From Burkholderiales bacterium (GTDB lineage: Bacteria > Pseudomonadota > Gammaproteobacteria > Burkholderiales > Burkholderiaceae_D), in NCBI GenBank assembly GCA_016196925.1, contig JACPWS010000029.1, positions 53,016-117,015 of the forward strand: a stretch of 64,000 bases of DNA, read 5' to 3'. How positions within the stretch are numbered: position 1 is the first letter of the stretch; every line of letters starts with the position of its first letter. Made by a program: the position numbers and the translations under genes. Of this stretch, positions 17,221-53,934 are shown one piece after another. The notes under the pieces were generated by a model. That model did not search any database. It saw nothing but the letters and a program-made list of their open reading frames with translations, and was not told the DNA's origin.

Positions 17221-17310
17221 ACATACTCCCCACTGAAAACCAGCTTTTCGGTCTGCCATCAAGGAAAACAAAGCGGGCCTTAATGGTACTGGAGGGGAGT
17301 ATATATTTTG
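17221..17310 (-). repeat. TACT-N7-AGTA dispersed repeat, copy A
   Basis: Terminal catactccc and core TACT-GGAGGGG-AGTA (17287-17301); partial similarity to copies B-D. Confidence 0.65.
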
Positions 17311-17365
17311 TTTCGTTTTTGGCTGCCGGAGAGGCTTGCAGCAGCCTGCTACAGAGATCGTGAAT

Positions 17366-18163
17366 ATGTCAAGAATACAAACTACCATGGCTGCGCTGGC
17401 AGCCACGCATAAAAAAGGCTTGATCCCCTTCATCACCGCCGGCGATCCGGCGCCGCAACTGACCGTGCCGCTGATGCATGCGCTGGTCGAAGGCGGGGCC
17501 GACATCATCGAACTCGGCGTGCCGTTTTCCGATCCGATGGCGGACGGCCCGGTGATACAGCGCGCTTCCGAGCGGGCGCTGCTGCTTGGTGTCAGTTTGC
17601 GCGATGTATTACAATTCGTCCGCGAATTCCGCCGCAGCAACCAAAACACGCCGGTGGTGCTGATGGGTTACGCCAATCCCATCGAGCGCATGGGGCAGGC
17701 TGCCTTCATACAGCAGGCGGCCGAAGCCGGGGTGGATGGGGTGCTGGTGGTCGATTACCCGCCGGAAGAGTGTGAGGAATTCGCCAAAAATATGCAGCAG
17801 CAGGGCATGGATACCATCTTCCTGCTGGCGCCGACCTCGACCGATGAGCGCATCGCCCAGGTCGGCAAGATCGCCAGCGGTTATGTGTATTACGTCTCGC
17901 TGAAAGGCGTGACCGGCTCCGGTGCACTCGATCTGGAGGCGGTAGCGACCATGATTCCGCGCATCAAGCGGCAAGTCAAGGTGCCGGTCGGCGTCGGTTT
18001 CGGCATCCGCGACGGCGCTACCGCCCGGGCGATTTCGGCGAGCGCCGACGCCGTTGTGATAGGCTCGCGCATCATCCAGGAACTGGAAAATACGCCGCGT
18101 GAAAACGCTGTTGCCGCAGTAAAAAGCTTTATTTCTGGTGTCAGACAGGCTTTGGATGAGTAA
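17366..18163 (+). CDS. trpA: Tryptophan synthase alpha chain
   Basis: [34 protein letters not shown]; start MSRIQTT. Confidence 0.97.
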
Positions 18164-18260
18164 GGCTAGGGTAAAATACGCGCCAAAACCGGTTCTTTGA
18201 CCAAAATGAACCTGATGCCGGCCTGCTAAAAAGGCATGCCGGCTGCTAAAAGGAGAAAAC

Positions 18261-19133
18261 ATGAGTTGGCTGGAAAAACTGTTACCACCGCGCATACAGC
18301 GCTCGGAAACTGCGAATCGTAAATCGATACCCGAAGGGCTGTGGGTCAAATGTCCATCGTGCGAAGCCGTGTTGTACCGTTCCGATCTGGAAGCCAATAT
18401 CCATGTCTGCCCTAAATGCAGCCATCACCTGCGCATCGGTGCGCGCGAGCGCTTGGATGCCTTGCTGGACGCCGGCGGCCGCTATGAAATCGGCCAGGAA
18501 GTCTTGCCGGTCGACACCCTGAAATTCAAGGACAGCAAGAAATACCCGGATCGCCTGAAAGGTGCGCTGGAAACCACAGGCGAAACCGATGCCATGGTGG
18601 TCATGGGCGGCTCCATCATGGCGGTGCCGGTGGTGGCGGCTTGCTTCGAATTCGAATTCATGGGCGGCTCCATGGGCTCGGTCGTTGGCGAGCGCTTCGT
18701 GCGCGGCGTGCAGAACGCGCTCGAGCAAAAAGTGCCCTTCGTCTGCTTCACCGCGACCGGCGGCGCCCGTATGCAGGAGGGCTTGCTGTCGCTGATGCAG
18801 ATGGCCAAGACCACCGCTATGCTGACCAAGTTGTCTGAAAAGAAATTGCCTTTCATTTCCGTGCTGACCGACCCGACCATGGGCGGCGTCTCGGCTTCCT
18901 TCGCCTTTCTGGGTGACGTGGTGATTGCCGAACCTAAGGCGCTGATCGGCTTTGCCGGCCCGCGCGTGATCGAAAACACCGTGCGCGAAAAACTGCCGGA
19001 AGGCTTCCAGCGCGCCGAATTCCTGGTGCAAAAAGGCGCGGTCGACATGATCATCGACCGCCGCAAGATGCGCGAAGAAATCGCCCGCCTGCTGGCCTTG
19101 TTGCAAAACCAGCCAGCCGATGCCGTTTCCTGA
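18261..19133 (+). CDS. accD: Acetyl-CoA carboxylase carboxyltransferase subunit beta
   Basis: [39 protein letters not shown] zinc ribbon; [15 protein letters not shown]. Confidence 0.97.
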
Positions 19134-19153
19134 TTTTTACTGCTACTAAAGAT

Positions 19154-19182
19154 AAGCCCGACGCTGTGTTCGGGCTTTTTTT
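19154..19182 (+). terminator. accD terminator-like hairpin
   Basis: aagcccgacgctgtgttcgggctttttt. Confidence 0.75.
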
Positions 19183-19187
19183 ATCCT

Positions 19188-20477
19188 ATGACTAAACTAC
19201 CTGCCACCCTGCCTGCATGGCTGGCTCTGCTGGAAACCCGCCATTCCAAAGAAATCGACATGGGGCTGGAGCGCGTCGCCGCCGTTAAGCAGCGCCTCGG
19301 CATACTTTACGATTGCCCGGTCATCATGGTGGCCGGCACCAACGGCAAGGGTTCGACTTGCGCCATGCTGGAAGCCATCTTGCTGCAGGCAGGCTATCGC
19401 GTCGGCCTGTACAGCAAGCCGCATTTTCTCGATTTCAACGAGCGCGCCCGCATCAACGGCCGGATGGTGGAAGACCCGGCCTTCATTGAGGCCTTCGCCG
19501 AAGTTGAGGCACAGCGCGGCGAGATTTCCCTGACGTATTTTGAATTCACCACGCTGGCGATCTGCAAGCTGCTGGCCGACGCCAAACTCGATGTGGTGAT
19601 ACTCGAAGTCGGTCTCGGCGGCCGTCTGGATGCGGTGAATGTGATCGACGCCGATGTGGCTATCGTCACCAGCGTGGATATCGACCATGTCGATTACCTC
19701 GGCGATACCCGCGAAAAAATCGGTTTCGAGAAGGCCGGCATCTTCCGCACCGGCAAGGCCGCGATTTGCGGCGATCCACTGCCGCCGCAATCGCTGATCG
19801 ATCACGCCATGGAAATCGGCGCCGATCTGTGGCTGTTCGGACGCGATTTCAATTACAACGGCGATAAGCAGCAATGGAATTTCGCCGGCCGCAGCCAGCG
19901 CCGCAATTCGCTCGGCTATCCGAGTCTGCGCGGCGCGAATCAGTTGCTGAACGCTTCGGCGGTATTGGCGGCGCTGGAAGTCTTGAAGCACCGCTTGCCG
20001 GTCGGTGCGCAAGAAGTGCGCAACGGCCTGGTAATGGTCGATTTGCCGGGACGTTTCCAGGTCTTGCCGGGGCGTCCGGTGGTGGTGCTGGACGTGGCGC
20101 ACAACCCGCATGCGGCCGCCACCCTGGCGCAGAACCTCGACAATATGGGCTTCCACGCCTACACCTATGCAGTGTTCGGTTCCATGCTGGATAAAGACAT
20201 AGACGGCGTGATCGCCCAGTTGAAAGGCAAGGTCGATCACTGGTGCGTGACCGGCTTGCCCCTGCCGCGCGCCGCCAGTGCGCAGCAGTTGGAACAGCGC
20301 TTGCACGCGGCCGGCGTGCCGGCCGACGCCGAACGCAGCATACAAAGTTTCGCTACGCCCGAGCAAGCCTATGCATATGCCATAGGAAAAGCGGGTGAGA
20401 ATGATAGAATAGTGGTCTTTGGTTCTTTCCTCACCGTGGCCGGCGTCATGCGGGCCAGACGGTCGGCCAGGCACTGA
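19188..20477 (+). CDS. folC: Dihydrofolate/folylpolyglutamate synthase
   Basis: MVAGTNGKGSTCAMLEAIL, VGLGGRLDAVNV, LDVAHNPHAA. Confidence 0.95.
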   Translation: MTKLPATLPAWLALLETRHSKEIDMGLERVAAVKQRLGILYDCPVIMVAGTNGKGSTCAMLEAILLQAGYRVGLYSKPHFLDFNERARINGRMVEDPAFIEAFAEVEAQRGEISLTYFEFTTLAICKLLADAKLDVVILEVGLGGRLDAVNVIDADVAIVTSVDIDHVDYLGDTREKIGFEKAGIFRTGKAAICGDPLPPQSLIDHAMEIGADLWLFGRDFNYNGDKQQWNFAGRSQRRNSLGYPSLRGANQLLNASAVLAALEVLKHRLPVGAQEVRNGLVMVDLPGRFQVLPGRPVVVLDVAHNPHAAATLAQNLDNMGFHAYTYAVFGSMLDKDIDGVIAQLKGKVDHWCVTGLPLPRAASAQQLEQRLHAAGVPADAERSIQSFATPEQAYAYAIGKAGENDRIVVFGSFLTVAGVMRARRSARH

Positions 20478-20545
20478 AGATGACTCGCGCGGAACAGCTC
20501 CCTGCGGGGCACCGCTAACCAACCGCTACCAACCGATAATTGCAC

Positions 20546-21538
20546 ATGGGTTTGCTCTCGCTGTTCAAACAGAAGCAAGAAACATCCGTCGATCAGGATA
20601 ATGGCGAATTCCGTTCCCGCGCCGAGGATGAGACCAACCAGGCGCGCGCGCGCGGCAAGAAAGACGATGCGCCGCGCAATGGTAAAGCCGGCAAGGCCGC
20701 CGATCCCGTGTTGCCTGAGAAGAAGCGCGCCAGACGGCGCCTGATCGGCGCGGTGGCGCTGGTGCTGGCGGCGGTGATAGGCTTGCCGATGATCCTCGAT
20801 TCCGAACCGAAACCTCTGGCCGACGACATCGCGATACAAATCCCCTCCAAAGACAAACCGCTGGCCGCTTCCGCCGCGCCGGAACCGGCCGCCGGCAGAA
20901 ATAACAGCGCCGCCGCGAATGAGTCTATAGAAGAAATCATCGATCCTGCTCCGGTCGATAAAAAAACGCCGGCCGGCCACGCTGCCGGCGTTCCTGATGC
21001 AGCACTGCCGCCCGTTGCCAAAAACAATGCGCCGGCAACCGTCACGCCTCTGCAAGACAAGGGCGCCAAGACGGATAGACCGCTGGAAGCGAAGCCCGAG
21101 GCCAGAGCAGCGGCCGCCGAGGTAAAAGCTGCGCTGGCGCCGAATGTGAAAACTTCGGGAAAAGACAATTTCGACGGCAAGCCCGGCGAACATGCGAAGC
21201 CGGCCATCGTCAAGACTGCCCCGGCCGGCGATGAAGCGGCGCGCGCCATGGCTATCCTGGAAGGCAAGGCGCCTCCCAAGGCCGCCAGCAAGCCGGAAAG
21301 CGCAGCAAAATCGAGCTATGTGGTGCAGGTGGCCGCCTTGGCAAGCCAGGAAAAAGTGCGCGAACTGCAAAGCAGACTGAAGGCGGCGAATATCCCGTCT
21401 CATACGCAAAAAGTGGCGACCACCTCCGGAGAAATCATCCGGGTCAAGGTCGGCCCCTTTGACTCGAAAGAGGAAGCGGATAAAGTGCGCGCCAACTTGC
21501 TCAAGTTGGGCTTGAACGGCAACCTGATCGCGAACTAA
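20546..21538 (+). CDS. SPOR domain protein (DedD-like)
   Basis: Single TM, low-complexity linker, C-terminal SYVVQVAALASQEKVRELQSRL...VKVGPFDSKEEADKV. Confidence 0.88.
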   Translation: MGLLSLFKQKQETSVDQDNGEFRSRAEDETNQARARGKKDDAPRNGKAGKAADPVLPEKKRARRRLIGAVALVLAAVIGLPMILDSEPKPLADDIAIQIPSKDKPLAASAAPEPAAGRNNSAAANESIEEIIDPAPVDKKTPAGHAAGVPDAALPPVAKNNAPATVTPLQDKGAKTDRPLEAKPEARAAAAEVKAALAPNVKTSGKDNFDGKPGEHAKPAIVKTAPAGDEAARAMAILEGKAPPKAASKPESAAKSSYVVQVAALASQEKVRELQSRLKAANIPSHTQKVATTSGEIIRVKVGPFDSKEEADKVRANLLKLGLNGNLIAN

Positions 21539-21544
21539 ACTGGA

Positions 21545-22039
21545 TTGCCCGTGACCCTGTTCGATTACCTGGTATTGCTGATCCTGATTTGTTCGATAGT
21601 GATCAGTACCATGCGTGGTTTGATCAAAGAAATCTTGTCGTTAGTCAGTTGGATCGTGGCCTTCGTCGTGGCGAATGCGTATAGCGGGGCGCTGGCAGCC
21701 TGGTTGCCCAACTTATTTCCGGGCCAGATGTTGCGCCTGATCGTGGCCTTCCTGGCGCTGTTCGTCGGCGTACGGCTGTTGATGGCGCTGGTGATGATGG
21801 CGGTTGATGCGGTGATCAAGGCCAGCGGCCTGAAACTCGCCGATCGCGGCCTGGGTGGCTTGTTTGGTCTGGCGCGCGGCTGTGTATTGGTGCTGGCCGC
21901 CGTGCTGTTGTGCGGCATGACTGCGATCCCGCAACAGGCATTCTGGAAAAATGCCTTGCTGAGCCCGCTGGCGGAAACCGCCGCGCGCACCGTTATCCCG
22001 TTTTTACCGGCATCCATTTCCGGACACGTAAAGTTTTAA
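21545..22039 (+). CDS. cvpA: CvpA family protein
   Basis: FDYLVLLILICSIVISTMRGLIKEILSLVSWIVAFVVA; directly before purF. Confidence 0.92.
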   Translation: MPVTLFDYLVLLILICSIVISTMRGLIKEILSLVSWIVAFVVANAYSGALAAWLPNLFPGQMLRLIVAFLALFVGVRLLMALVMMAVDAVIKASGLKLADRGLGGLFGLARGCVLVLAAVLLCGMTAIPQQAFWKNALLSPLAETAARTVIPFLPASISGHVKF

Positions 22040-22063
22040 TTGTCTTTTTTTTAGGAGTCCACC

Positions 22064-23584
22064 ATGTGTGGCATCGTAGGTGTAGTTTCAAATAATCCTG
22101 TGAACCAGCTGATTTATGACGCCTTGCTGCTGTTGCAGCACCGCGGCCAGGATGCGGCCGGTATCGCGACCAGCCACGGCAACAAGTTCGCCATGCATAA
22201 GGCCAACGGCCTGGTGCGCGACGTGTTCCGCACCCGCAACATGCGCTCGCTGCCGGGCAATGTCGGCATCGGCCAGGTGCGTTATCCTACCGCCGGCTCC
22301 ACCAGCGAAGAAGAAGCGCAGCCGTTCTACGTCAACGCGCCTTTCGGCATCGTGCTCGCGCATAACGGCAACCTGACCAATGCGGTCGAACTGAAGATCG
22401 AATTGTTCAAGAACGACCGCCGCCATCTGAACACCGATTCCGATTCCGAAGTCTTGCTGAACATCCTGGCGCACCAGATCCAGGAAGTCACCAGCGGTTA
22501 TTCGCTCGACCCGGCCGCCTTGTTTCACGCCGTTTCCATGCTGCATAGACGCGTGCGCGGCTCGTACGCGGTGGTGGCGCAAATCGCCGGTTACGGCTTG
22601 CTGGCTTTCCGCGATCCTTACGGCATCCGTCCGCTATGCATAGGCGTGTCGCAAAATGAGTCCGGCGCCGAATACATGATCGCCAGCGAATCGGTGGCGC
22701 TGGAAGGCCTGGGCTTCAAATTCCTGCGCGACGTCGCGCCCGGCGAAGCCTTGTTCATCGACCTGGACGGCAAGCTGTACAACCAGCAATGCGCAGAGAA
22801 TCCTAGCCTCAATCCTTGCGCCTTCGAATACGTGTATCTGGCCCGTCCGGATTCCATCATCGACGGCGCCTCGGTGTATCTGACCCGTCTGAAGATGGGC
22901 GAGTACCTGGCGGACAAAGTGCGCAATCAATTCCGCGACGGTGAAATCGACGTGGTGATGCCGATTCCCGACTCTTCCCGCCCATCGGCGATGGAGCTGG
23001 CGCTGAAACTGAACCTCGATTACCGCGAAGGCTTCATCAAGAATCGCTATATAGGCCGCACTTTCATGATGCCGGGCCAGGCCATACGCCGCAAATCGGT
23101 GCGCCAGAAGCTGAATGCAATCGGCTCCGAATTCAAGGGCAAGAGCGTGTTGCTGGTCGACGATTCCATCGTACGCGGCACCACCAGCCGCGAAATCGTG
23201 CAGATGGCGCGCGAATCGGGCGCCAGGCGCGTGATTTTCGCTTCCGCTGCGCCGCCGGTGCAATTCCCCAACGTATACGGCATCGACATGCCTACCCGCA
23301 GCGAATTGATCGCCTATGGCCGCAGCGAAGAAGAAGTCTGCCGCGAAATCACGGCCGACGCCCTGGTGTATCAGGATGTCGCCGCGATGAAGCGCTCGAT
23401 TGCCGACGTCAATCCCGCCCTGAAAAACATCGAAGCATCTTGCTTCGATGGCTTTTACATCACCGGCGACGTGACTGCCGGCTACCTCGATAAGCTGGAG
23501 GCCGCGCGCAATAGTCCGCGTCCGGACAGCGAGGATTTGCTGCGTTCGCAACTGAACCTGAACCTGGCTGAACGCGGCGATTAA
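22064..23584 (+). CDS. purF: Amidophosphoribosyltransferase
   Basis: MCGIVGVVSNNPVNQLIYDALLLLQHRGQDAAGI; VLLVDDSIVRGTTSREIVQMAR. Confidence 0.97.
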   Translation: MCGIVGVVSNNPVNQLIYDALLLLQHRGQDAAGIATSHGNKFAMHKANGLVRDVFRTRNMRSLPGNVGIGQVRYPTAGSTSEEEAQPFYVNAPFGIVLAHNGNLTNAVELKIELFKNDRRHLNTDSDSEVLLNILAHQIQEVTSGYSLDPAALFHAVSMLHRRVRGSYAVVAQIAGYGLLAFRDPYGIRPLCIGVSQNESGAEYMIASESVALEGLGFKFLRDVAPGEALFIDLDGKLYNQQCAENPSLNPCAFEYVYLARPDSIIDGASVYLTRLKMGEYLADKVRNQFRDGEIDVVMPIPDSSRPSAMELALKLNLDYREGFIKNRYIGRTFMMPGQAIRRKSVRQKLNAIGSEFKGKSVLLVDDSIVRGTTSREIVQMARESGARRVIFASAAPPVQFPNVYGIDMPTRSELIAYGRSEEEVCREITADALVYQDVAAMKRSIADVNPALKNIEASCFDGFYITGDVTAGYLDKLEAARNSPRPDSEDLLRSQLNLNLAERGD

Positions 23585-23605
23585 ACCCCGCCCGGCGTCC
23601 CGCCC

Positions 23606-23643
23606 AAAAAAGCCCGCCGCGCCCCGCGTAGCGGGCTTTTTTA
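23606..23643 (+). terminator. purF terminator
   Basis: aaaaaagcccgccgcgccccgcgtagcgggctttttt. Confidence 0.8.
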
Positions 23644-23644
23644 C

Positions 23645-23719
23645 GGGAGTATGTGCTAAAAACGGCCTGTCGTCCGTGAATTTAAAGCGCCTTAAAATAT
23701 ACTGGAGAGGAGTATATTG
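23645..23719 (-). repeat. TACT-N7-AGTA dispersed repeat, copy B
   Basis: gggagtatgt ... core TACT-GGAGAGG-AGTA (23700-23714); reverse complement aligns with copies C and D. Confidence 0.75.
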
Positions 23720-23885
23720 GAAGCTTCAGGCGCCGTCGCCGCTTAAGTAACAGCCGTATGCATGCTGTTTCAATTCCATACAAATCCGAGGCCGGGCGGG
23801 CTGGCTAAGCGGGTCGCACAGCCATACAATGGCGGCCAAGCGCAGCACCGCCGGTGCTGCAGACCGAACCTAGCCACCGCTCCCC

Positions 23886-26132
23886 ATGCCCAGACATCTG
23901 CCACGCCGCCTGTTGAGTTTTGCGCTCGCCGGCGCTTTTTCCGCCACCGCACAGGCGCAGGCGATCAGCCCCGCGTCAAATGAAGAAACGCAGGAACAGC
24001 CCGTCACTAAGCCTCAGCCTAAACCTAAGCCGGCGGACGCCAGGGCCGGCGTGCAAAGCGTCACCATCAGCGCCGGCCGCGCATCGGAACTGGAGCAGCG
24101 ACGCCAGTCCACCGCCGCGAAAATGATTTTCGGGCGGGAAGAGCTCGATCGCAACGGCGACGCCAGCATAGGCGAAATTTTGAAGCGCTTGCCGGGCGTC
24201 ACGGTCGGCGGCCGGCCCGGGCGCGGCGGCGACATCCGCATGCGCGGCATGGGCAGCGGCTATACCCAGATTTTGATCAACGGCGAAAGAGCGCCGCGCG
24301 GCTTTTCCATGGATAGCCTGACGCCGGATCAGGTCGAGCGTATAGAAATCATGCGCGGCCCGGTGGCGGAATACAGCACCCAGGCGATTGCCGGCACCAT
24401 CAACATCGTCTTGCGCGAGGAATACAAGCAAAAAAACGCCGATCTCAAAATTTCCGAAAGCTTTGAGCGGGGGCGCAACAGCCACAACATTTCTCTCACT
24501 TATCCCGGAGACGCGGGCGCTTTGTCGTACGCCCTGAGCGGTTCCGTATTCCAGAATCAGCAAGGCGATGAGGTCGGCACCGCAACCGTGGAGCTCAATC
24601 CGGCCGGCCAGCCCAGCTTGATACAGAACCAGTTCGACCAGACCAGGCGCCGTTCCACCGGCGTGCACCTGGTGCCGCGTTTCAGCTATCGCTGGGAGAA
24701 CGGCGACACGCTGATGTTGCAGCCGTTTTTTATGAATACGCGCAGCGATTCCAATAGCGACAGCCAGCTCACGCAAACGCTGAGCAGCGTTGCTGCACCC
24801 TATGCGTCAGCCTTTGCTTCCGCCCATGCGGAGACCAGTTTTGCGCGCGGCTTCGGCAACTGGCAACACAAATTCGCCGACAACGCCCGGCTGAATGTCA
24901 AGTTCGGCGGCGGCGTCGGGCGCATGGAAAGCAATTCTTTGCGCTACCAATACGACGCCAGCGGTAAACAAGTGGACTTGATCAGCGATGTCGACAACAC
25001 GCGCGACAGCAGCATCAATACCGGCGGTAAATACAGCAAACCGTTGGGTGAAGGGCATACGCTGGCGGCCGGCTGGGAAATCGAGGCCGGCAACCGCACG
25101 CAGACCCGGGTGTCGCTCGCTAACGGTGCGCCGCAATTCGCCGAATCCGGCGATAATCTGGACGCCGGCACGCGCCGCCTCGCCCTGTTTGCGCAAGACG
25201 AATTCGATATCAGCGCCCAATGGTCGGCGTATGCCGGCTTACGCTGGGAAGGCATACGCACAACCAGCAGCACGACCACAGGCGCGGTCGATAATCGCAG
25301 CAGCATATGGAGCCCGCTCTTGCATGCAGTCTGGCGCATTCCCGGTGGCGGCAAGGATCAGGTGCGCGTCAGCCTGACGCATAGTTACCGTGCCCCGGCC
25401 CTGAACGACTTGATCGCCTTGCCAGCGATTTCCAGCTTAAATAGCCCGACCCGCCCGGACCGTAGCGGCAATCCCGCATTGAAGCCGGAATTATCCAGGG
25501 GCATAGACCTGGCTTACGAGCACTACCTGAGCCGCGCCGGGATCATGAGTGCGAATCTGTTCGTGCGCAGCATAGACGACCTGATGCGGCGCCGCGCGGT
25601 GTTGATGGATACCGTCACCGGCCCGCGCTGGGTGTCGTCGCCGCAGAATGTCGGCCACGCCGTGACGCGCGGCATCGAGCTGGAAGCGAAGTTCCAGTTG
25701 CAGGAGTTTTTCCCGGACGGCCCCACCATTGACGTGCGCAGCAATTACAGTCATTTCTGGTCCAGCGTCGACCATGTTCCCGGCCCGAACAACAGGCTCG
25801 ATCAGCAGCCGGAGCAAACCGCCAATTTAGGTATCGATTACCGCGCCGCCGGCTGGCCGCTGATCCTGGGCGGCAACCTTAACTGGACTCCGGCCTATGT
25901 GACGCAAAGCAGCGATACGCAAATCAGCTCAAGCGGCTTGAAGCGCCAGCTCGATCTGTACGGTTTGTGGAAATTCAGCCCCGCCGTACAACTGCGCTTG
26001 TCCGCCAATAATCTGCAGGCGGGCGATTACCTGAGCGGCAACGCGGTGACGACCGGTGGCATCGAGCACGTCGACGACAGCAGCGCAAAAACATACACCA
26101 CCTGGACCTTAAGGCTGGAAATGAAGCTTTGA
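23886..26132 (+). CDS. TonB-dependent outer-membrane receptor
   Basis: Plug domain (LKRLPGVTVGGRPGRGGDIRMRGMGSGYTQILINGERAPRG, VERIEIMRGPVAEYSTQAIAGTINIVL) and C-terminal beta-barrel. Confidence 0.92.
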   Translation: MPRHLPRRLLSFALAGAFSATAQAQAISPASNEETQEQPVTKPQPKPKPADARAGVQSVTISAGRASELEQRRQSTAAKMIFGREELDRNGDASIGEILKRLPGVTVGGRPGRGGDIRMRGMGSGYTQILINGERAPRGFSMDSLTPDQVERIEIMRGPVAEYSTQAIAGTINIVLREEYKQKNADLKISESFERGRNSHNISLTYPGDAGALSYALSGSVFQNQQGDEVGTATVELNPAGQPSLIQNQFDQTRRRSTGVHLVPRFSYRWENGDTLMLQPFFMNTRSDSNSDSQLTQTLSSVAAPYASAFASAHAETSFARGFGNWQHKFADNARLNVKFGGGVGRMESNSLRYQYDASGKQVDLISDVDNTRDSSINTGGKYSKPLGEGHTLAAGWEIEAGNRTQTRVSLANGAPQFAESGDNLDAGTRRLALFAQDEFDISAQWSAYAGLRWEGIRTTSSTTTGAVDNRSSIWSPLLHAVWRIPGGGKDQVRVSLTHSYRAPALNDLIALPAISSLNSPTRPDRSGNPALKPELSRGIDLAYEHYLSRAGIMSANLFVRSIDDLMRRRAVLMDTVTGPRWVSSPQNVGHAVTRGIELEAKFQLQEFFPDGPTIDVRSNYSHFWSSVDHVPGPNNRLDQQPEQTANLGIDYRAAGWPLILGGNLNWTPAYVTQSSDTQISSSGLKRQLDLYGLWKFSPAVQLRLSANNLQAGDYLSGNAVTTGGIEHVDDSSAKTYTTWTLRLEMKL

Positions 26133-26155
26133 TTGATTTTGAGGCTAGGCATTTT

Positions 26156-26275
26156 GTCCACGAAATACACGAAAACCGCGCAAGATATTTCCTGGTCGAT
26201 TTAGTCGTGATCGCCAGCAAATTTTTTTGCTGGTTTCGCGGGTTCCTCAGTTTCGGTTTCGTGTATTTCGTGGAC
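26156..26275. repeat. Long inverted repeat (gtccacgaaatacacgaaa ... tttcgtgtatttcgtggac)
   Basis: Outer arms 26156-26176 and 26255-26275; inner hairpin ccagcaaattttttttgctgg-type. Confidence 0.85.
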
Positions 26276-28182: not shown

Positions 28183-28199
28183 GACTGGGATGATGTTAC

Positions 28200-44843: not shown

Positions 44844-44856
44844 TTCTCAGCGGGAA

Positions 44857-44886: not shown

Positions 44887-44887
44887 T

Positions 44888-45688
44888 TCAGACGGCGCGC
44901 CGCATTTTTTGCGCGGTATAGGTTTTGGCTTCGACCGGCGGCTTGATTAATTTAACGATGGCGAACGTGCAATTGTCGCCGCGGCCGGCAGCTCTTTCCC
45001 TGGCTTTCCTGATCAATAATTCCGCCGCCTGGCGCGGCGTGTTGGCGGCGACTGCGGCCGATAATTCGGCATCGTCAAAGTAATGCCAGAGGCCGTCTGA
45101 GCACAGCAGGAAACAGTCGGTCGCCTTCAGGTGGTCGTATTGGCCAAAAGTGACGTAGGGGACGGCGGTGCTCGAGCCTATCACATTGACCAGAATATTC
45201 GACAGCTTATGGCTCTTGGCTTCTTCCGGGCTGATTTTGCCTTCGTCCACCAATTTCTCGACGTAGGAGTGATCCTTGGTTCTTTCTGCATAGTTCGGGC
45301 CGCTGAAGCGATACAGGCGCGAATCGCCGGTATGCGCCCAGATCGCCTGTTTTTGCGGGGTGATGACTAAGGCAACGAAAGTGCTGTGCGGTTCTTTTTC
45401 TGCAGAAACGCCGGCTAATTTGATGACGGTATGGGCTTCGTTGACGATGTTTTCCAGCAGGCTGCGGACATCGTTGCCGGGGTAAAAGTCGTCAAATAAT
45501 TGTTTTGCGGTACGTATCACCTGATCGGCAGCCAGGGCGCCGCCGCTCTTGCCGCCCATGCCGTCTGCCAGCACGGCCATCATGTGGCCGGGCGCATGCG
45601 GGGCGGCAAACAGCGCGACCCGGTCTTGCTGTTCTTGCCGGTCGCCGATATGTTGTCCGGTGCCGGCTTCGATCTTATATTGGCTCAT
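44888..45688 (-). CDS. PP2C-family serine/threonine phosphatase
   Basis: VLADGMGGKSGGALAAD, HTGDSRLYRF, LLCSDGLW, GDNCTFAIVKL. Confidence 0.93.
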   Translation of the reverse strand: MSQYKIEAGTGQHIGDRQEQQDRVALFAAPHAPGHMMAVLADGMGGKSGGALAADQVIRTAKQLFDDFYPGNDVRSLLENIVNEAHTVIKLAGVSAEKEPHSTFVALVITPQKQAIWAHTGDSRLYRFSGPNYAERTKDHSYVEKLVDEGKISPEEAKSHKLSNILVNVIGSSTAVPYVTFGQYDHLKATDCFLLCSDGLWHYFDDAELSAAVAANTPRQAAELLIRKARERAAGRGDNCTFAIVKLIKPPVEAKTYTAQKMRRAV

Positions 45689-45773
45689 ACGTGTTGGTAG
45701 ATTAAACTAGCGGGATGAACCCAAAAAATGGTCTTGTATTAATTTAACTTAATTTTACTGTAAGCAGAAGACT

Positions 45774-45974
45774 ATGAGCCATCCGGAACAAATACAACAA
45801 CGCATTATTGAGCTGGAAGTCGAGCATAGGGACCTGGATGTGGTGATAGAAACGCTGATCAAAGACGCCGGACACGACGAATTGCAGTTGCGCCGCCTGA
45901 AAAAGCGCAAATTGCAATTGAAGGATCATATAACTTTGTTAAAGATGCAGCTCATGCCGGATGTCCCCGCCTGA
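45774..45974 (+). CDS. DUF465/YdcH family protein
   Basis: RIIELEVEHRDLDVVIETLIKDAGHDELQLRRLKKRKLQLKDHI. Confidence 0.85.
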   Translation: MSHPEQIQQRIIELEVEHRDLDVVIETLIKDAGHDELQLRRLKKRKLQLKDHITLLKMQLMPDVPA

Positions 45975-46031
45975 ATTTATTTTTCACTCTTTGAGTATTA
46001 CTCTTCCCACAGTTTCCGAGCACCCCCTATT

Positions 46032-48038
46032 TTGACAGTAACACTAGCGGCCCCGAATGCGCCTGGCATTCACGATCAAGAAGTCGAACAGCTATTTGGC
46101 TTGAGCGGCCCGCTCTCCGCCTCGGTGAACGGCTACAGCCCGCGCCTGGCGCAGACCGAGATGGCGAAAGCGATCGCCAATGCGATTGCCGGCCAGACTA
46201 CGCTGCTGGCGGAAGCCGGCACCGGTACCGGCAAGACTTATGCTTACCTGATCCCGGCCCTGCTGTGGGGCGGCAAGGTGATCGTCTCCACCGGCACCAA
46301 GAACCTGCAAGACCAGTTGTTTCTGCGCGATATCCCGACCATCAAGAAAGTCCTGAAGGCGCCGGTCTCGGTCGCCTTGCTGAAGGGCAGGGCGAATTAC
46401 CTGTGCCACTACCACCTGGAGCGCACGCTGCAGAACGGCCGCCTCAGTTCGCGTGAAGACGTTGGCTACCTGCGCGACATCGCGCGTTTCGTGAAAACTA
46501 CCAGCAGCGGCGACAAGGCCGAGCTGGCGCGCGTGCCGGAAAACGCTTCGGTGTGGAGCCTGGTCACCTCGACCAAGGATACCTGCATGGGTTCCGAGTG
46601 CCAGTATTACCAGGATTGCTTCGTCATGAAGGCGCGCAAGGAAGCGCAGCAAGCCGACGTGGTGGTGGTGAATCACCATCTGTTCTTCGCCGATGTGGCG
46701 CTGAAAGACACCGGCATCGCCGAATTGCTGCCGTCCGCCAATACCGTGATCTTCGACGAAGCGCACCAGTTGCCGGAAACCGCCACTTTGTTTTTCGGCG
46801 AAACCGTCTCCACTTCGCAAGTGCTGGAACTGTGCCGCGACGTGCTGGCCGAAGGCCTGTCGCATGCGCGCGACGGCGCCGAATGGGCCAAGCTGGTGGC
46901 GCCGGTAGAGCGCGCCGCGCGCGATTTGCGACTGGCGTTTCCGCAAGAATTCGTGCGGCTGGCGATAGACCAGATCGCCGTTTCCAGCCCTTTCTTCGAG
47001 ACCCTGGAAACCCTGAAAAGCTGCATGCAAGACATGATAGCTGTGTTGGAAAAGCAGGCGGAAAGGGCCGAAACCCTGGAGCAATGCCGCGCGCGCGCCA
47101 TCCTGCTGAACGAGCAGTTGCACAACTGGAACGGCGCGCCGGACGCCAAAACGCAAAGTAAGCAGAAAGAGGGCGACTATGTGCTGTGGGTGGAAGCGTT
47201 TTCCACCTCGCTGCAATTGCACCGCACCCCCTTGTCGATCGCACCTATCTTCAACAAGCAGCGCGAAGGCGTGCCGCGCACCTGGATCTTCACCTCGGCC
47301 ACCATGGCGGTCAAGAACGACTTCAGCCATTACGTCTCGCAGATGGGCTTGTGGGACGAGCCGGCGCACACCTGGCCCAGCCCCTTCAATTACCAGGAGC
47401 AAGGCTATCTGTACGTGCCGACCGGCATGCCTGAGCCTAACTCGCGCGATTACAGCGACGCGGTGCTGGACGCCGCCTTGCCGGTGATTGAGGCGGCCGG
47501 CGGTCGCACTTTCTTGCTGTGCACCACGCTGAAAGCCGTCAAGCACAGCGCCGAGCGCTTGCGCGCAGAATTCCAGCAGCGCGGCCTGAACTTCCCGCTG
47601 TTTGTGCAGGGCGACGCCGGCCGCACCGAATTGCTGGACCGCTTCCGCGCCGCCGGCAACGGCGTGCTGATCGGCAGCCAGAGCTTCTGGGAAGGCGTGG
47701 ACGTGCGCGGCGAAGCGCTGTCCTTGGTCATCATCGACAAACTGCCGTTCGCCCCGCCGGACGATCCGGTGCTGTCGGCCCGCATCGCCGCCATGGAAAA
47801 GAAAGGCCTGAACGGCTTCGTGCACCACCAGCTACCGGAAGCCATCATCAACCTGAAACAGGGCGCCGGCCGTCTGATCCGCGACGAGGGCGACAAAGGC
47901 GTACTGATGATCTGCGACCCGCGCCTGATCTCCAAACCCTACGGCAAACGCATCTGGCAAAGCCTGCCCAGCTTCGCCCGCACCCGCGAGCTGGGTGAAG
48001 TGCTGGCTTTCTTTGAAAAACTGCGACTGCCGTCGTGA
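46032..48038 (+). CDS. dinG: ATP-dependent DNA helicase, DinG/YoaA-like
   Basis: LLAEAGTGTGKTYAYLIPAL, Cys cluster around CMGSECQYYQDC, VIFDEAHQLPE, GRLIRDEGDKGVL. Confidence 0.93.
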   Translation: MTVTLAAPNAPGIHDQEVEQLFGLSGPLSASVNGYSPRLAQTEMAKAIANAIAGQTTLLAEAGTGTGKTYAYLIPALLWGGKVIVSTGTKNLQDQLFLRDIPTIKKVLKAPVSVALLKGRANYLCHYHLERTLQNGRLSSREDVGYLRDIARFVKTTSSGDKAELARVPENASVWSLVTSTKDTCMGSECQYYQDCFVMKARKEAQQADVVVVNHHLFFADVALKDTGIAELLPSANTVIFDEAHQLPETATLFFGETVSTSQVLELCRDVLAEGLSHARDGAEWAKLVAPVERAARDLRLAFPQEFVRLAIDQIAVSSPFFETLETLKSCMQDMIAVLEKQAERAETLEQCRARAILLNEQLHNWNGAPDAKTQSKQKEGDYVLWVEAFSTSLQLHRTPLSIAPIFNKQREGVPRTWIFTSATMAVKNDFSHYVSQMGLWDEPAHTWPSPFNYQEQGYLYVPTGMPEPNSRDYSDAVLDAALPVIEAAGGRTFLLCTTLKAVKHSAERLRAEFQQRGLNFPLFVQGDAGRTELLDRFRAAGNGVLIGSQSFWEGVDVRGEALSLVIIDKLPFAPPDDPVLSARIAAMEKKGLNGFVHHQLPEAIINLKQGAGRLIRDEGDKGVLMICDPRLISKPYGKRIWQSLPSFARTRELGEVLAFFEKLRLPS

Positions 48039-48067
48039 CGCCGGTCCAGGCCGGTAAACCGGCTAAA

Positions 48068-48154
48068 AATATACTCCATCCCAGTATTATCTAGACCCGC
48101 CTTTAAATATACCGGCGACAGGCTGGTTTGGTTGAAAATTAGGGGGAGTATAGG
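48068..48154 (+). repeat. TACT-N7-AGTA dispersed repeat, copy C
   Basis: Core TACT-CCATCCC-AGTA (48072-48086); body ctttaaatataccggcgacaggctggttt. Confidence 0.75.
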
Positions 48155-48212
48155 TATTTTGCTGCGTATGGGCCGAGAAAACAGGTGGTGGGCTCGTAGG
48201 TCGGAAAAGCAG

Positions 48213-48359
48213 TAGGTCGGAAAAGCGCAGCGCCTTCCGACACTGACTGCTAGCAAATGCCCGAGCCCCTGAACCCGCCACCGACCTATCTCACCGTGCG
48301 ACCATAGCCGGTGCATTGCACACCTTCGTAGTAAGGCGCTGCGCTTTTCCTATCTACGT
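48213..48359. repeat. REP-like inverted pair (gtcggaaaagcgcagcgccttcc / gtaaggcgctgcgcttttcc)
   Basis: Complementary arms at about 48213-48241 and 48328-48359. Confidence 0.75.
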
Positions 48360-48481
48360 CCCTATATCTGCATGGAAAACCTTTGATACGCCCCGCCGGT
48401 TCGGTGGATATGGATGACAAAAGCAAAACAAATACGGATCGCAGCAAGAGATGCTATCCTCGGCTCTTTGCTTTTTTAGAC

Positions 48482-50128
48482 ATGAAACTCATGAAAAAAT
48501 CAAACGTCTTGATTGCGGCGCTGAGCGTCGCTTGCGTCCCCTTGATCGCCGATGCGGCTGAAGTCAGCGTCCAGATCCGGCTGGCGGCACCCGATGCGCT
48601 GGAAGTCAGCTACGCGCTGCCGCCGCAGTGCAAGCAATTGCCTTTCCTGAAAAACGGCAACAGCGGCCAGCAGATACGCGCGGCCTGGCAGGCGTTGGAT
48701 GACTGCGGCACGGCCGGCGGCGAAGCACTCAGCCGCAACCAGGACGCTTGTCCGGTACTGCGCTTCCGCGTGCCGGCCACTACCAACAAGATCAGCGGCT
48801 ACCCCGGCGCATTTCCTTTGGATGGCGGGATTTATGTGCATACCTCCAACTATGCGCCCGGCGAGGCTTGCGGCCAGGTCAGCTACCATTTTCAGGCGCC
48901 CGGCATCGCCACCGAAGGCCAGGCTTACCAGGGCGCCGTGACCGCTTCTGCGCCAAACGGCGGCGACACCTCAGCCCTGCTGCTGCAGGCGCCCATGCAG
49001 GCGGGCGCCGCTACCCTGGCGTACTACGATGCGCGCCTGTCGGCCGCCGCCGTGGCCCAGATTAAGGAGGTGGCGGACGGTACGGTTTCTTTCCTGCGCA
49101 CGGCTTTGCCGGACGCCGTGTTCAAAGCGCCGATTCTGGCGGCCGTCGCGGCTACCGAAGCGGGCGGCCCGAATATAGGCGGCAGCGCCAGCGACGTGTT
49201 GTTGCTCTCCTTTTTCAACTGGCCGCAGCAACCCGGTCCTAAAGAGCACGCCAAGATGACGCTGCTGGTGGCGCACGAATTCAGCCACCGCTTCCAGATG
49301 CGCGACGCGGTCGATGATTATCCCGATGCGCGCCTGATCCATGAGGGCGGCGGCGAATTCCTGCGCTGGATGACTTCGCTGCAAAAAGGCTGGCTGAGCC
49401 ATCAAGAGGCGGCCGACGACCTCGACAATGCGCTGGCGAACTGCGTGCTGTACACCAACCAGAAAAACTGGCGCGCGCTGACGCCGGCCGCGATAGGCGG
49501 CAATCGCCTCGAATATCGTTGCGGCCTGCCGGCCTATGTGTATGCGCTGGCCGCACGCCAGGGCTCGGGCAGCGCGCTGAAGCGCTTCAACGACTTCTAT
49601 AAGGAATTAAGGCAGGGGCAAACGCCCGATTTTGGCCAGGCGCTGGAATGCGGCGCCGACCAGCAGTGCCAGGCGCGCTGGCTGCCGCTGTTGTTGGGAC
49701 AGGGCGCGCCGATGGAAGTGCAATGGCATCAGTTGCTCAGCGACAGCGGCCTGGCGCGGCCGCGTCCGCCGACCCAGAACGAACGCGACGTGATGAGCTT
49801 GGAAGCCGTGGTCAAACTGATGCGCGATGATTGCGGCGGCCGCAGCAGCACGACCGAGACGCCCGACGGCATCCTGCTCGATGGCATGAGCGCCTGCAAG
49901 ACCCTGAAAGCCGACGCCTATGTGACCCGGATCGAAGACCAGCCCGTGTTTGGCGGCACAGCGGCCGGCCCGGCGATGGCGGCCGCCTGCATCGCGCGCC
50001 ATGAAGTCAGGCTGGGCATGAAAAACGGCGACAGCCTGACCGTCCCTTGCGAGCAGCCTTACCAGTTGCATCAGGAATTCTACGGCGTCGATATCGAGAA
50101 AGTGCTGGCGAAGTTGCTGCGCGAATAG
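48482..50128 (+). CDS. Putative secreted gluzincin-like metallopeptidase
   Basis: Signal peptide MKLMKKSNVLIAALSVACVPLIADAA; VAHEFSHRFQ and downstream HEGGGEFLRW. Confidence 0.6.
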   Translation: MKLMKKSNVLIAALSVACVPLIADAAEVSVQIRLAAPDALEVSYALPPQCKQLPFLKNGNSGQQIRAAWQALDDCGTAGGEALSRNQDACPVLRFRVPATTNKISGYPGAFPLDGGIYVHTSNYAPGEACGQVSYHFQAPGIATEGQAYQGAVTASAPNGGDTSALLLQAPMQAGAATLAYYDARLSAAAVAQIKEVADGTVSFLRTALPDAVFKAPILAAVAATEAGGPNIGGSASDVLLLSFFNWPQQPGPKEHAKMTLLVAHEFSHRFQMRDAVDDYPDARLIHEGGGEFLRWMTSLQKGWLSHQEAADDLDNALANCVLYTNQKNWRALTPAAIGGNRLEYRCGLPAYVYALAARQGSGSALKRFNDFYKELRQGQTPDFGQALECGADQQCQARWLPLLLGQGAPMEVQWHQLLSDSGLARPRPPTQNERDVMSLEAVVKLMRDDCGGRSSTTETPDGILLDGMSACKTLKADAYVTRIEDQPVFGGTAAGPAMAAACIARHEVRLGMKNGDSLTVPCEQPYQLHQEFYGVDIEKVLAKLLRE

Positions 50129-50219
50129 GTCTGGAACGGGGCTGAAATTGAGGATGGCGCCGACGGTGTTTGGCATTTTTTGATTCGTCGGCCAACGCAG
50201 CTAAAAAAAACGCAACACG

Positions 50220-50355
50220 CGTAGGTACGATTAGCAAGGCGTAATCGTACGCATGTTTAGGCGTTCAAATCACTTTTTGGATAGGTGCGACGCGGGGAAT
50301 GAGGTCGGTGGAGATAGTCATACGTACGATTACGCGTTGCTAATCGTACCTACGT
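50220..50355. repeat. REP-like inverted pair, GTAGGTACGATTAGC family, copy 1
   Basis: Arms 50220-50254 and 50319-50355, each with TACGATTA/TAATCGTA complementarity. Confidence 0.88.
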
Positions 50356-50398
50356 GAATGAACTCGGGCGCTAGCCGCTTTCGGGTAACAAAGACCAA

Positions 50399-50433
50399 CA
50401 AAAAAGGGCAGCCCCGAGGGACTGCCCTTTTTA
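50399..50433 (-). terminator. pepO terminator
   Basis: aaaaaagggcagccccgagggactgccctttttac. Confidence 0.8.
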
Positions 50434-50479
50434 CTTAGCATCGCCGCTCACGGCGACGATTTCAGGCTGGTCAGATGAC

Positions 50480-52543
50480 TTACCAGATCGAAACGCGCTC
50501 GGCTGGCGACAGGTACATCTTGTCGCCTTCTTTCACGCCGTAGGCTTCGTAGAAGCCGGGCATGTTGCGCAGCGAGCCGTTGGCGCGGATTTCGCCGGGG
50601 GAGTGCGGGTCGGTCTTCAACTGGATGATGGTCGACGCTTCGCGCATCTTGCCGCGCCAGACCTGGCCGAAGCCCATGAAGAAGCGCTGGTCGCCGGAGA
50701 GACCGCCGATCACCGGCGCCGGTTTGCCGCCCAGTGACAGCTTGTAGGCTTTGTAGGCGATCGCCAGGCCGGAGTTGTCGGCGATGTTTTCGCCGAGGGT
50801 CAGTTCGCCGTTGACGTGGTAGCCGGGAATCGGGGAAAACACGCTGTATTGCTTGACCAGGGTGGCGGTCTTGGTGGCGAATTTTTCGTGGTCGGCCTTG
50901 GTCCACCAGTCGCGCAGATTGCCTTTGCCGTCGTATTGGGCGCCCTGGTCGTCGAAGCCGTGGCTGATTTCATGGCCGATCACGGCGCCGATGCCGCCGT
51001 AGTTGACGGCGTCGTCCGCTTTGGCGTTGAAGAATGGCGGTTGCAGGATGGCGGCCGGGAACACGATTTCGTTCATTTCCGGGTTGTAATAGGCGTTCAC
51101 GGTTTGCGGCGTCATGCCCCATTCGTCGCGGTCGATAGGCTTGCCGAGTTTGTTCAGCTCGACCTGGGCCGCGAACTGGCGCAGGTTGCGCAGGTTGGCG
51201 ACGGTGTCGCCCTTGCTGATTTGCAGGGCGGAGTAATCGCGCCATTTGTTCGGGTAACCGATCTTAGGCATGAAAGTCGCCAGCTTGGCTTGCGCTTCTT
51301 TCTTGGTTTCCGGGCTCATCCAGTCCAGCGTGTCTATGCTTTGCTTGTAAGCCAGCAAGAGGTTGTTGACCAGCTTTTCCATCTTGGCCTTGTACTCGGC
51401 CGGGAAGTGCTTGCCTACGTACAGCTTGCCCAGGCTTTCGCCCATGCCGCTGTCGGCCAGGCGCACGGCGCGTTTCCAGCGCACTTCCTGGCTGGGTACG
51501 CCGCGCAAGGCGGTGCCGTAGAAGGCGAAACTTTCATCGCTGAACGCTTGCGGCAACTGGCCGGCGCTGGAGCTCAGCAAATGCCACTTGAAATAAGTCT
51601 TCCAGGTAGCGAGCGCAGTCGCCTGCAGCACGCTGTTGAAGCCGCTCAGGTAGCTAGGCTGGCTGACGATCAGGTAATCGATCTTGCCTTGCACGCCGAG
51701 TTTGCCGAGGTAGGCGTTCCAGTCGTAGCCTGGGGTCAGTTCGCCCAGTTTGCTGATTTCTATCTTGTTGTAAGCCTTGATCGGGTCGCGCAATTCGACC
51801 TTGGTCCATTGCACTTTGGCCAGTTCGGTTTCCAGCGCCAGGATGTCGGCGGCGTGCTGGGCGGCTTCCTTGTCGCCGGCCATGCTCAGCATTTTTTCTA
51901 TGTGCTGCAGATACTTGGCGCGCGCATCCTTGAGCTTGGCGTCGTCGTCTTTCAGGTAGTAATCGCGGTCGGGCAAGCCGAGGCCGGATTGGCCCAGATC
52001 GAGCACGTACTTGGTGGAATCTTTATTGTCCTGGTGGACCTGGATGTCGTAAGGGGCGGTGACGCTGATCTTGTTCATCCATGCCATCAGGGCCGGGATG
52101 TCTTGCTTGTCGCTCAGCGCATCGACCTTGGCGAAATCGGCCGCCATCGGTTTCAGGCCGAGCGCGTCGATGCGGGCGGTGTCCATGAAGCTGGCGTACA
52201 GGTCGGCGATCTTTTGGGCGTCGCTGCCGGCCTTGTTATGGGACTTGGACAAACCTTCGATGATCGCTTGCAAACGTGGGATCGTGGCTTCGCGCAAATC
52301 CATGAAAGCGCCGGCGGACGGCTTGTCGGCCGGAATTTCGGCGCTCTTCAGCCAGCTGCCGTTAACGTGACGGTAGAAATCGTCCTGGGCGCGCATGGCG
52401 CTGTCGTTGTTGCCGGCTTCTATGCCGGACAGCAAGACCGACGGGGCGGCCGAGGTCACAGCCTTGGCCGGTTCGGCGGCGGTGGCTGTGCCGGCGGCGC
52501 CGGCGAACATGAGCGCGATAGCGCCGATTACGTGAGCTTTCAC
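50480..52543 (-). CDS. pepO: M13-family metallopeptidase (PepO/neprilysin-like)
   Basis: VIGHEISHGFDDQGAQYD, GENIADNSGLAIAYKAYK, NAYYNPEMNEIVFPAAILQPPFF; GTG start with ggaga RBS. Confidence 0.94.
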   Translation of the reverse strand: MKAHVIGAIALMFAGAAGTATAAEPAKAVTSAAPSVLLSGIEAGNNDSAMRAQDDFYRHVNGSWLKSAEIPADKPSAGAFMDLREATIPRLQAIIEGLSKSHNKAGSDAQKIADLYASFMDTARIDALGLKPMAADFAKVDALSDKQDIPALMAWMNKISVTAPYDIQVHQDNKDSTKYVLDLGQSGLGLPDRDYYLKDDDAKLKDARAKYLQHIEKMLSMAGDKEAAQHAADILALETELAKVQWTKVELRDPIKAYNKIEISKLGELTPGYDWNAYLGKLGVQGKIDYLIVSQPSYLSGFNSVLQATALATWKTYFKWHLLSSSAGQLPQAFSDESFAFYGTALRGVPSQEVRWKRAVRLADSGMGESLGKLYVGKHFPAEYKAKMEKLVNNLLLAYKQSIDTLDWMSPETKKEAQAKLATFMPKIGYPNKWRDYSALQISKGDTVANLRNLRQFAAQVELNKLGKPIDRDEWGMTPQTVNAYYNPEMNEIVFPAAILQPPFFNAKADDAVNYGGIGAVIGHEISHGFDDQGAQYDGKGNLRDWWTKADHEKFATKTATLVKQYSVFSPIPGYHVNGELTLGENIADNSGLAIAYKAYKLSLGGKPAPVIGGLSGDQRFFMGFGQVWRGKMREASTIIQLKTDPHSPGEIRANGSLRNMPGFYEAYGVKEGDKMYLSPAERVSIW

Positions 52544-52762
52544 TATGGGGGTCTCCTGATGTGAAGTTGGCTGATGAAGTGTTTCAGCCGGGGGTAGACT
52601 GAAATACCGGGATAGAGTTCTGGAAAAAACTGCCATTCTAGTAAATTTTTCCCCGGCGCGGCCAGACAATTCGCGAAGAATGTATGCTGCACAGCACAGA
52701 TGTTTCCGGGGGGAAGTATTTGTTTCCCGGCGGGAAGGAAAACGGCTTGCGCGAAGCCGGTT

Positions 52763-53085
52763 TTATTCCAGCGACCAGATTACGCAATAGCCGGTCAGCT
52801 TTTGCTGGCGCAGTTGCTGCAGCAACTGCGCCTTGGCGATTTCGGGCGGGAAATCCGCGATTTCACTCAGCAAGACTTAGCCGGTGATGGGGTGGATATA
52901 CACATATAGTGCCTTTCTTCTGGCGTGATTCTGTGCCCGGTGGCGAGGATGGCGGGGACGGTGTGCAACTCGCCCATGTCGTGGCAGAGCGCCGCCAGCA
53001 AGTTCCGCCAGGGCGCGCAGATCATGCTGCGTTTCGCCGGGAGCGGCAGGCAAATCGACGGCGGGTGGGCGAGCTCCGGGGTCAT
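52763..53085 (-). pseudogene. Decayed HD/HD-GYP-type phosphohydrolase gene
   Basis: One frame reads LLAALCHDMGELHTVPAILATGHRITPEERHYM; after a frameshift another reads YIHPITG*VLLSEIADFPPEIAKAQLLQQLRQQKLTGYCVIWSLE*. Confidence 0.72.
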
Positions 53086-53220
53086 GGGGCCTCCCCTGGT
53101 GGCTTGCGGTCTATGCTTCTTTTCGTTTCATCGTTAGCAAAACTATTTTCCGGGTCAATTTTCACGGCTTTATCCAGTGCAGGACAGGATCGCGGCCGCT
53201 TGCATCAGCCTGGCCGCCGG

Positions 53221-53679
53221 CTATAAATTATTTCCGGCCGGGCTGTCCTGGCCGCGTTTTTCTGCGGCAATTCTTGCATACCACGCTTCCAGCATTTCGC
53301 TGCGCTGGCCCTGCAGTACGCGCAGCAATTCCATGCGCGCCGCCAGGCGCTCGGCCCCCGAGCGCTCGAGGTAGTCGAGCAATTCTTCGAATAGTTCCCG
53401 GCGTTCGTATCCCGTATCGCTCAGGTCGCGCCGGTCGGAAAAGAACGCCAGCAGGGTGGAGCCGCAGACGCAGTTGCGATACAGCTCGACCAGCGGGCCA
53501 TCTTCTTCGTCTTGCGCCGATTTTAAGCCGCTGCGGTCGCCCCGTATCGCTACCGTCTGCTCGAAATAATCGGCTTCGGATGCATAGACGCGCCCGCAAC
53601 ACGCGCAGCGCTTGGGGAAATCGGAGCGGCTCAAGGCTTTCAGGCCTTCGTACCATTGACGGTGCTGCGCGAGTGACAT
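53221..53679 (-). CDS. Hypothetical protein with two Cys clusters
   Basis: MSLAQHRQWYEGLKAL...RCACCGRVY...NCVCGSTLLAFFSDRRDL; upstream 115 codons of the listed ORF look non-coding. Confidence 0.65.
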   Translation of the reverse strand: MSLAQHRQWYEGLKALSRSDFPKRCACCGRVYASEADYFEQTVAIRGDRSGLKSAQDEEDGPLVELYRNCVCGSTLLAFFSDRRDLSDTGYERRELFEELLDYLERSGAERLAARMELLRVLQGQRSEMLEAWYARIAAEKRGQDSPAGNNL

Positions 53680-53850
53680 GCCGTTTCCTTTGCTGCAAAT
53701 CGGACGGTCGGTTCCCATGCCGCCGAAACCGGGAGGCGCCTGCGCCGCGCAGGTTTTTACCGGGAGCGGCGTATGCGGCAAGCGTTTATATCGTAGCCGT
53801 TTAAGAGAGGCGATACAAGTTTTCCATGTAAAACAGCGCCTCGCAAGCAA

Positions 53851-53934
53851 AAATATACTACCCCCTAGTATATAAAAATGTCCCTTTAAATACGCTGACG
53901 ATAGCGTTGTTTTTAAACATACTCCCATATATTT
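53851..53934 (+). repeat. TACT-N7-AGTA dispersed repeat, copy D
   Basis: Core TACT-ACCCCCT-AGTA (53856-53870); body cctttaaatacgctgacgatagcgttgtttttaaacatactccc. Confidence 0.72.

Follow-up and report, generated by a model that had tools for sequence, protein, structure and literature searches.

The stretch of DNA analysed here (the window) comprises 64,000 nucleotides of contig JACPWS010000029.1 (positions 53,016 to 117,015; assembly GCA_016196925.1) from a bacterium of the genus Undibacterium, the host, whose assembly consists of 3.54 Mb in 107 contigs and is 94% complete. Four intergenic sites of the window, next to trpB and trpA, purF, yoaA and a PepO-like gene, carry copies A to D of a repeat of ~80 bp (Table 1), exactly where an earlier note on this sequence had placed them. 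Exactly four matches to TACT-N7-AGTA lie in the window (17287, 23700, 48072 and 53856), compared with a chance expectation of 0.07, and all five occurrences of ATACTCCC (0.45 expected) fall inside the four repeat sites. A scan for the geometry of the repeat recovered copies A to D and no other site of the window, and the same scan of the reversed window gave no hits. An open reading frame (53221-54024) that would overlap copy D had a poor score and no Pfam match.

Table 1. Coordinates of the repeat copies (letters of the half-sites as read in the window) and of the candidate regulator gene
Feature	Form	Coordinates	Strand	Core dyad	Distal half-site	Context
Copy A	1	17223..17302	-	17287-17301 (TACT-N7-AGTA)	ATACTCCC, 17223-17230	Gap between trpB (15812-17080) and trpA (17336-18163)
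Copy B	2	23645..23714	-	23700-23714	GGGAGTAT, 23645-23652	3' of purF (22064-23584)
Copy C	1	48072..48151	+	48072-48086	GGGAGTAT, 48144-48151	Immediately 3' of yoaA (46032-48038)
Copy D	2	53856..53926	+	53856-53870	ATACTCCC, 53919-53926	Divergent gap between PepO-like gene (50480-52669, -) and gene 54090-54983 (+)
Divergent CsoR-family gene		G000:C49:25752-25970	-			PF02583, 59 bits (cut-off 22.8)

Anatomy and distribution of the repeat

The aligned copies have a common order: an A-rich stretch, TATACT, a spacer of 6-7 bp, AGTATA, a body of ~45-55 bp and a distal half-site. The core is a dyad, ATACT-N6/7-AGTAT, with a variable spacer, and the distal half-site is GGGAGTAT in form 1 and ATACTCCC in form 2; in copy B it follows directly on a GC-rich hairpin and a T-run. 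Measured from the AGTA of the core in seven species with bodies that are unrelated in sequence, the distal AGTA of form 1 lies at 61-64 bp and the distal TACT of form 2 at 52-53 bp. The inversion of the distal end in copies A and C relative to B and D, which the earlier note had described, is real, and the alignment explains it: the distal end is either the left or the right half of a single slot for a half-site, whose distance from the core does not vary. Identical half-sites are 62-63 bp apart, arithmetically six helical turns at 10.5 bp each, and a single turn separates the two halves of the core; thus, all half-sites lie on one side of the helix. The supposedly invariant TACT-N7-AGTA core holds for all four copies of the window, but spacers of six nucleotides are common in U. 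rivi and U. aquatile. Similarly, a G/C-rich spacer is a feature of the host lineage only: spacers in the host genome are mostly C- or G-runs, while those of the G155 lineage are mixed. The bodies of some lineages contain further symmetrical motifs, a second dyad TGTCCA-N9-TGGACA in the G155 lineage (L158/L162, L166, L174 and L180) and CGCA-N9-TGCG in G119, G203 and G221, each of which may be another, lineage-specific protein site.

The pattern TACTN7AGTATA gave 138 strand matches in the host genome, compared with two for the reversed pattern, and a profile of 71 positions built from 20 copies found at least 150 matches there, all with E <1e-4. The further copies that the earlier note had proposed to look for are thus present in abundance. 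Among 196 genomes of the GTDB family, the repeat was enriched in the genus of the window only, where 17 of 44 genomes had profile matches and eight of these at least 50; the profile is biased to the repeat version of the host, and counts in other genomes are lower bounds. Named species with repeats are U. rivi (G104), U. aquatile (G063), U. griseum (G032) and U. oligocarboniphilum (G202). In the host, 67 of 69 copies are intergenic, many of them no more than 40 bp from a stop codon. A geometric scan of 1.95 Mb from five species found 72 copies, compared with one in the reversed sequence; divergent gaps were occupied in 4% of cases and co-directional and convergent gaps in 11-13%, and copies did not favour either strand with respect to transcription. 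The number of copies, their intergenic bias and their limitation to related genomes all bear out the proposal of a dispersed repeat family. Like the earlier note, which did not recognise the family, we found no name for it, either in Rfam or in the literature searched (open-licence papers only).

Conservation of half-sites and spacing

Many sites are old. Of 14 repeat-bearing species examined, 13 have a copy of the same form and orientation between trpB and trpA; no repeat-free one does. The purF site is common to five species, including G032, G202, G063 and G104, and the site 3' of yoaA is occupied in one orientation in six (the host, G203, G085, G221, G119 and G205) and in the opposite orientation in G032/G202. 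The repeat-bearing species do not form one clade (approximately unbiased test, p ~1e-59), and their distribution requires four or more changes, a pattern pointing to an ancestral repeat family that disappeared entirely on several occasions. Among 60 aligned host copies, no two paralogues were more than 87% identical, barely above column-shuffled data, and recent copying is therefore not seen; the shared positions and the shared body sequence suggest that the sites spread early by copying. Strict concerted evolution was considered and rejected: body identity was 0.656 within species, 0.608 between orthologues and 0.604 between non-orthologues, a difference that is suggestive only.

To see what is kept at these sites, we compared collinear stretches of two pairs of sister species (U. 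rivi with U. aquatile and U. griseum with U. oligocarboniphilum) in 37 directed orthologous comparisons, the two directions of each pair being not fully independent; the C14 contigs of G104 and G063 lacked collinearity in the parts compared. Substitutions amounted to 0.5% in the left, 1.6% in the right and 0.0% in the distal half-site, and to 0.0% in the distal tract. The spacer had 6.8%, the body 12.3% and the flanks 11.8-13.0%. Gaps made up 0.3% of the body compared with 2.3-3.0% of the flanks, and empty orthologous sites, another point for which the earlier note had proposed a check, were found in none of the 37 comparisons. As copies were recognised by a strict motif in one species, the motifs of the other should show roughly 6% change, half of what is neutral; after allowing for this bias, four motif changes were observed and ~40 expected. 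The plain reading is that purifying selection acts today on the three half-sites and on the distance between them, while the sequence of the body is free to change. Half-sites that are near-frozen, a body whose length is held and the absence of empty sites in these comparisons argue that the selection is on protein-DNA geometry.

A candidate regulator of the CsoR family

The core dyad resembles the operators of a known family of repressors. The RcnR operator is TACT-G6-N-AGTA (PMC7055735), and type-I CsoR/RcnR operators have a GC tract of 3-8 bp between AT-rich inverted repeats (PMC5146963; see also PMC3902906); RcnR tetramers occupy the same helix face, and the DNA may be wrapped (PMC5146963). 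The inverted repeat is TACT/AGTA for RcnR of E. coli and ATAC/GTAT for FrmR. The host repeats have this build, an AT-rich inverted repeat around a GC tract, whereas in G155 the spacer departs from it. Like these operators, the repeats combine inverted TACT/AGTA with a 6-7 bp spacer, which is a G/C tract in the host lineage, and have their sites in tandem on one helix face; a dyad of the same form stands at the promoter of a CsoR-family gene of Undibacterium. Unlike them, they occur in >150 dispersed copies rather than at one promoter, most copies are not promoter operators, their second site consists of a single half-site at a distance of 62-63 bp, and the spacer is no G/C tract in some species. 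In other genera of Burkholderiales, TATACT-N7-AGTATA is nearly single-copy, and 16 of 20 sites (chosen mostly for G/C-rich spacers) lie at the promoter of an FrmR/RcnR-type gene (L346-L356, L358, L359, L362, L363 and L365). The dispersed copies stand in many unrelated intergenic gaps and not at CsoR-family promoters. What the earlier note had called an invariant core is better read as an operator dyad of the CsoR/RcnR type, and its inverted terminus as half of a second, phased half-site.

Which protein could bind these sites? FrmR-like genes are patchy in Undibacterium and missing from the host assembly. A divergent CsoR-family gene (Table 1), which encodes a candidate protein of 104 residues, is present in 14 of 14 repeat-bearing but in only four of 12 repeat-free Undibacterium genomes (Fisher p 3e-4). 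The eight genomes without it (G132, G144, G166, G177, G196, G199, G201 and G222) reflect three separate losses, each in a repeat-free lineage. No exporter gene adjoins it at the host locus, and in an alignment to solved CsoR-family proteins the conserved cysteine aligns while the position of the usual ligand histidine is an alanine. Upstream of the gene lies the dyad ATACT-N6-AGTAT, and its first codons, GAT-ACT-CCC, form an ATACT(CCC) half-site (ATACTCCC), a codon choice with a probability of ~0.011 under the codon use of the host genome. The distance from dyad to in-gene half-site is 72-73 bp (seven turns) in 13 repeat-bearing species, with diverged intervening sequence (for G203 and G205, the downstream one of two overlapping TACTs was used); among the repeat-free species, the four with the gene have distances of 59, 59, 71 and 82.

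Judging from these sequence comparisons, we think it probable that the repeats are dispersed bipartite operators of the divergent CsoR-family protein, which spread long ago by copying and are now kept by the host. Each copy would be a bipartite protein-binding site in double-stranded DNA, with tetramers of the protein binding the dyad and the phased half-site being reached by a second tetramer or by wrapping. The protein would bind at its own promoter and at the at least 150 intergenic copies, mostly away from divergent promoters. It may act as a chromosome-wide binding factor, in nucleoid organisation or in global or diffuse regulation, which we favour over classical repression because copies occur on both strands, are under-represented at divergent promoters and are retained at their positions. 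The sites would have spread by copying early in the genus, and the host would now retain them. Here the copy number and geometry, the purifying selection that acts on half-sites and their distance, the antiquity of shared positions, the agreement with published operators and the co-occurrence of gene and repeat are the direct results, from which we infer the identity of the binder, its oligomeric mode and its function.

Several points weigh against this assignment. In the G155 and G085/G119 lineages the repeats have no G/C tract as spacer, and the spacers of the regulator's own dyad (CAGTAG, for example) are unlike the classical A-form G-tract. The gene is not sufficient for the repeats, as four repeat-free genomes (G188, G204, G209 and G227) keep it. 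Three loss events are too few for a phylogeny-corrected test, and the association of gene and repeat rests on few independent events. The in-gene half-site may be partly due to coding constraint (Met-Ala/Ser-Asp-Thr-Pro-Pro is conserved). Finally, we know of no precedent for a CsoR-family protein with >150 sites. The four genomes that keep the gene form a clade of large genomes (6.3-6.7 Mb) in which the gene and its dyad are retained, dispersed repeats are absent and the spacing of dyad and half-site has ceased to be constant.

Proteins of the CsoR/RcnR/FrmR kind are known for the local control of a single operon, or a few, in the response to metal or aldehyde stress. More tentatively, a CsoR-family repressor without the usual ligand histidine could have become a chromosome-wide DNA-binding protein in Undibacterium. 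Its >150 bipartite sites, in phase with the helix and maintained by the host, would then have spread as a repeat family and disappeared from several lineages where the gene was lost. If true, this would be a new route by which a nucleoid-like or global factor can arise, and a dispersed repeat family would be explained by a function at the level of the host and not by selfish mobility. The proposal is directly testable, as the protein is small, the sites are short and relatives that naturally lack both gene and repeats can serve as controls.

Competing explanations and neighbouring features

Could the repeats instead be an ancient mobile element? A non-autonomous element similar to REPINs or to miniature inverted-repeat transposable elements (MITEs), now inert, would have ends conserved as transposase recognition sequences and would itself be retained passively. 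The high copy number and intergenic placing agree with this, as do the avoidance of divergent gaps, also seen for repetitive extragenic palindromic (REP) elements (PMC3733652), the inverted-repeat ends of many copies, the clade-specific occupied sites and the two orientations at yoaA; spread must once have happened. A dead element should decay evenly, however, whereas here the half-sites are near-frozen and the body keeps its length while drifting at the rate of the flanks, and neither empty sites nor host paralogues above the identity given earlier were found. The repeats share with MITEs a length of ~80 bp, inverted-repeat ends (form 1) and non-coding location, but form 2, half of the copies, is arranged otherwise, and neither a transposase with matching ends nor a larger element with the same ends was seen; nor was target duplication, though the flanks are too diverged to show it, and presence and absence do differ at the level of clades. 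The selection measured at the host level already largely contradicts an inert element, and we consider it unlikely. At L016, two neighbouring copies were considered as the ends of a larger transposon and rejected, as the intervening gene does not encode a transposase. With the REP, BIME and REPIN elements that are associated with RAYT transposases, the repeats have in common a high copy number, intergenic location, palindromic sequence, depletion between divergent genes and restriction to a clade (PMC3733652, PMC3116915). REP elements are defined by a GTAG/CGTC-type tag at the foot of a hairpin of 5-13 bp (PMC3733652). This tag is absent from the aligned copies of several species, and the repeats further differ in lacking covariation and in the purifying selection on their half-site geometry. 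Mobilisation by the single Y1 transposase gene (PF01797) of the genome would account for the decayed repeat copy ~100 bp downstream of that gene in the host and, likewise, in G155. Yet orthologues of the gene are present in repeat-free genomes too, its flanks carry different repeats, of the type GGGTCRGAGTC/GGGGACATAGT, both in the host and in other genomes, no hairpin-foot tag is common to the species, and the GTAG-like palindromes are separate, beside copy C; this origin is extremely improbable.

The earlier note had also suggested that compensatory changes might reveal an RNA structure, and a structured RNA or transcription terminator in 3' regions has some points in its favour: folding energy is below that of shuffled sequences for either strand (in the host genome, z averages -2.8 and -2.3), partly owing to the inverted-repeat ends, bodies form hairpins in G155 and G104/G063, and copies are often near stop codons. 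The outer arms show no covariation, however, and matched core arms pair no better than arms of different copies; a covariation scan of the host copies found no nested pairs within the body. The strength of the body hairpin depends on the species (it is absent in G085/G119), copies have no orientation bias relative to genes, one lies inside trpB-trpA, where termination would be costly, and a scan of the window with Rfam at gathering score matched only a tRNA and int-alpA, with no match at the repeats. An RNA function is accordingly very unlikely. Three structures were tried and rejected: a loop-tail pseudoknot, for which C-rich loops are associated with GGGG tails in the host (p 4.5e-5) but G155 spacers misfit and tails are constant there; an extended core hairpin, with one perfect palindrome (L005) and matched arms no better than mismatched ones; and a universal body hairpin, found in G155 and G104/G063 and not in G085/G119. 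A bipartite site of some other factor that binds double-stranded DNA (a nucleoid protein, another regulator or a recombinase whose spacer varies between 6 and 7 bp) would satisfy the selection pattern, which needs only some sequence-specific DNA-binding protein, and inverted arms around such a spacer resemble recombinase core sites. The sites matS, parS and those of Noc are likewise many conserved palindromic protein sites around the chromosome; they differ from the repeats in sequence and protein family, and the repeats are bipartite with a constant 63-bp module. Under any such factor the operator match, the co-occurrence and the bipartite site of the regulator itself would all be coincidence, which makes it a rather improbable explanation compared with the CsoR-family protein.

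Other repeats and an apparent insertion were observed as well. The RAYT gene is single-copy and conserved across the family, in most genomes with flanking GGGTCRGAGTC/GGGGACATAGT repeats that are apparently cognate (L032, L034, L036-L039, L043, L045 and L046). Beside copy A, positions 17100-17178 contain an inverted ATTCCC/GGGAAT-type palindrome (GTCATCCCCGCGAAAGCGGGGATCC ... GGATTCCCGCTTTCGCGGGAATGACG), which we take to resemble the dRS3-like repeats of Neisseria. Just 3' of copy C (48196-48245) lies the palindrome GTAGGTCGGAAAAGC...GCCTTCCGAC, GTAG-tagged as in classical REP elements, and a similar GTAGGGTGGG palindrome adjoins a repeat copy in locus L007. Positions 2875-8683 of the window, where a tRNA gene is followed by a Mob_Pre plasmid-recombination gene, an int-alpA RNA, a Gp49/HigA-like toxin-antitoxin pair and a phage-type integrase, are probably a small integrated element.
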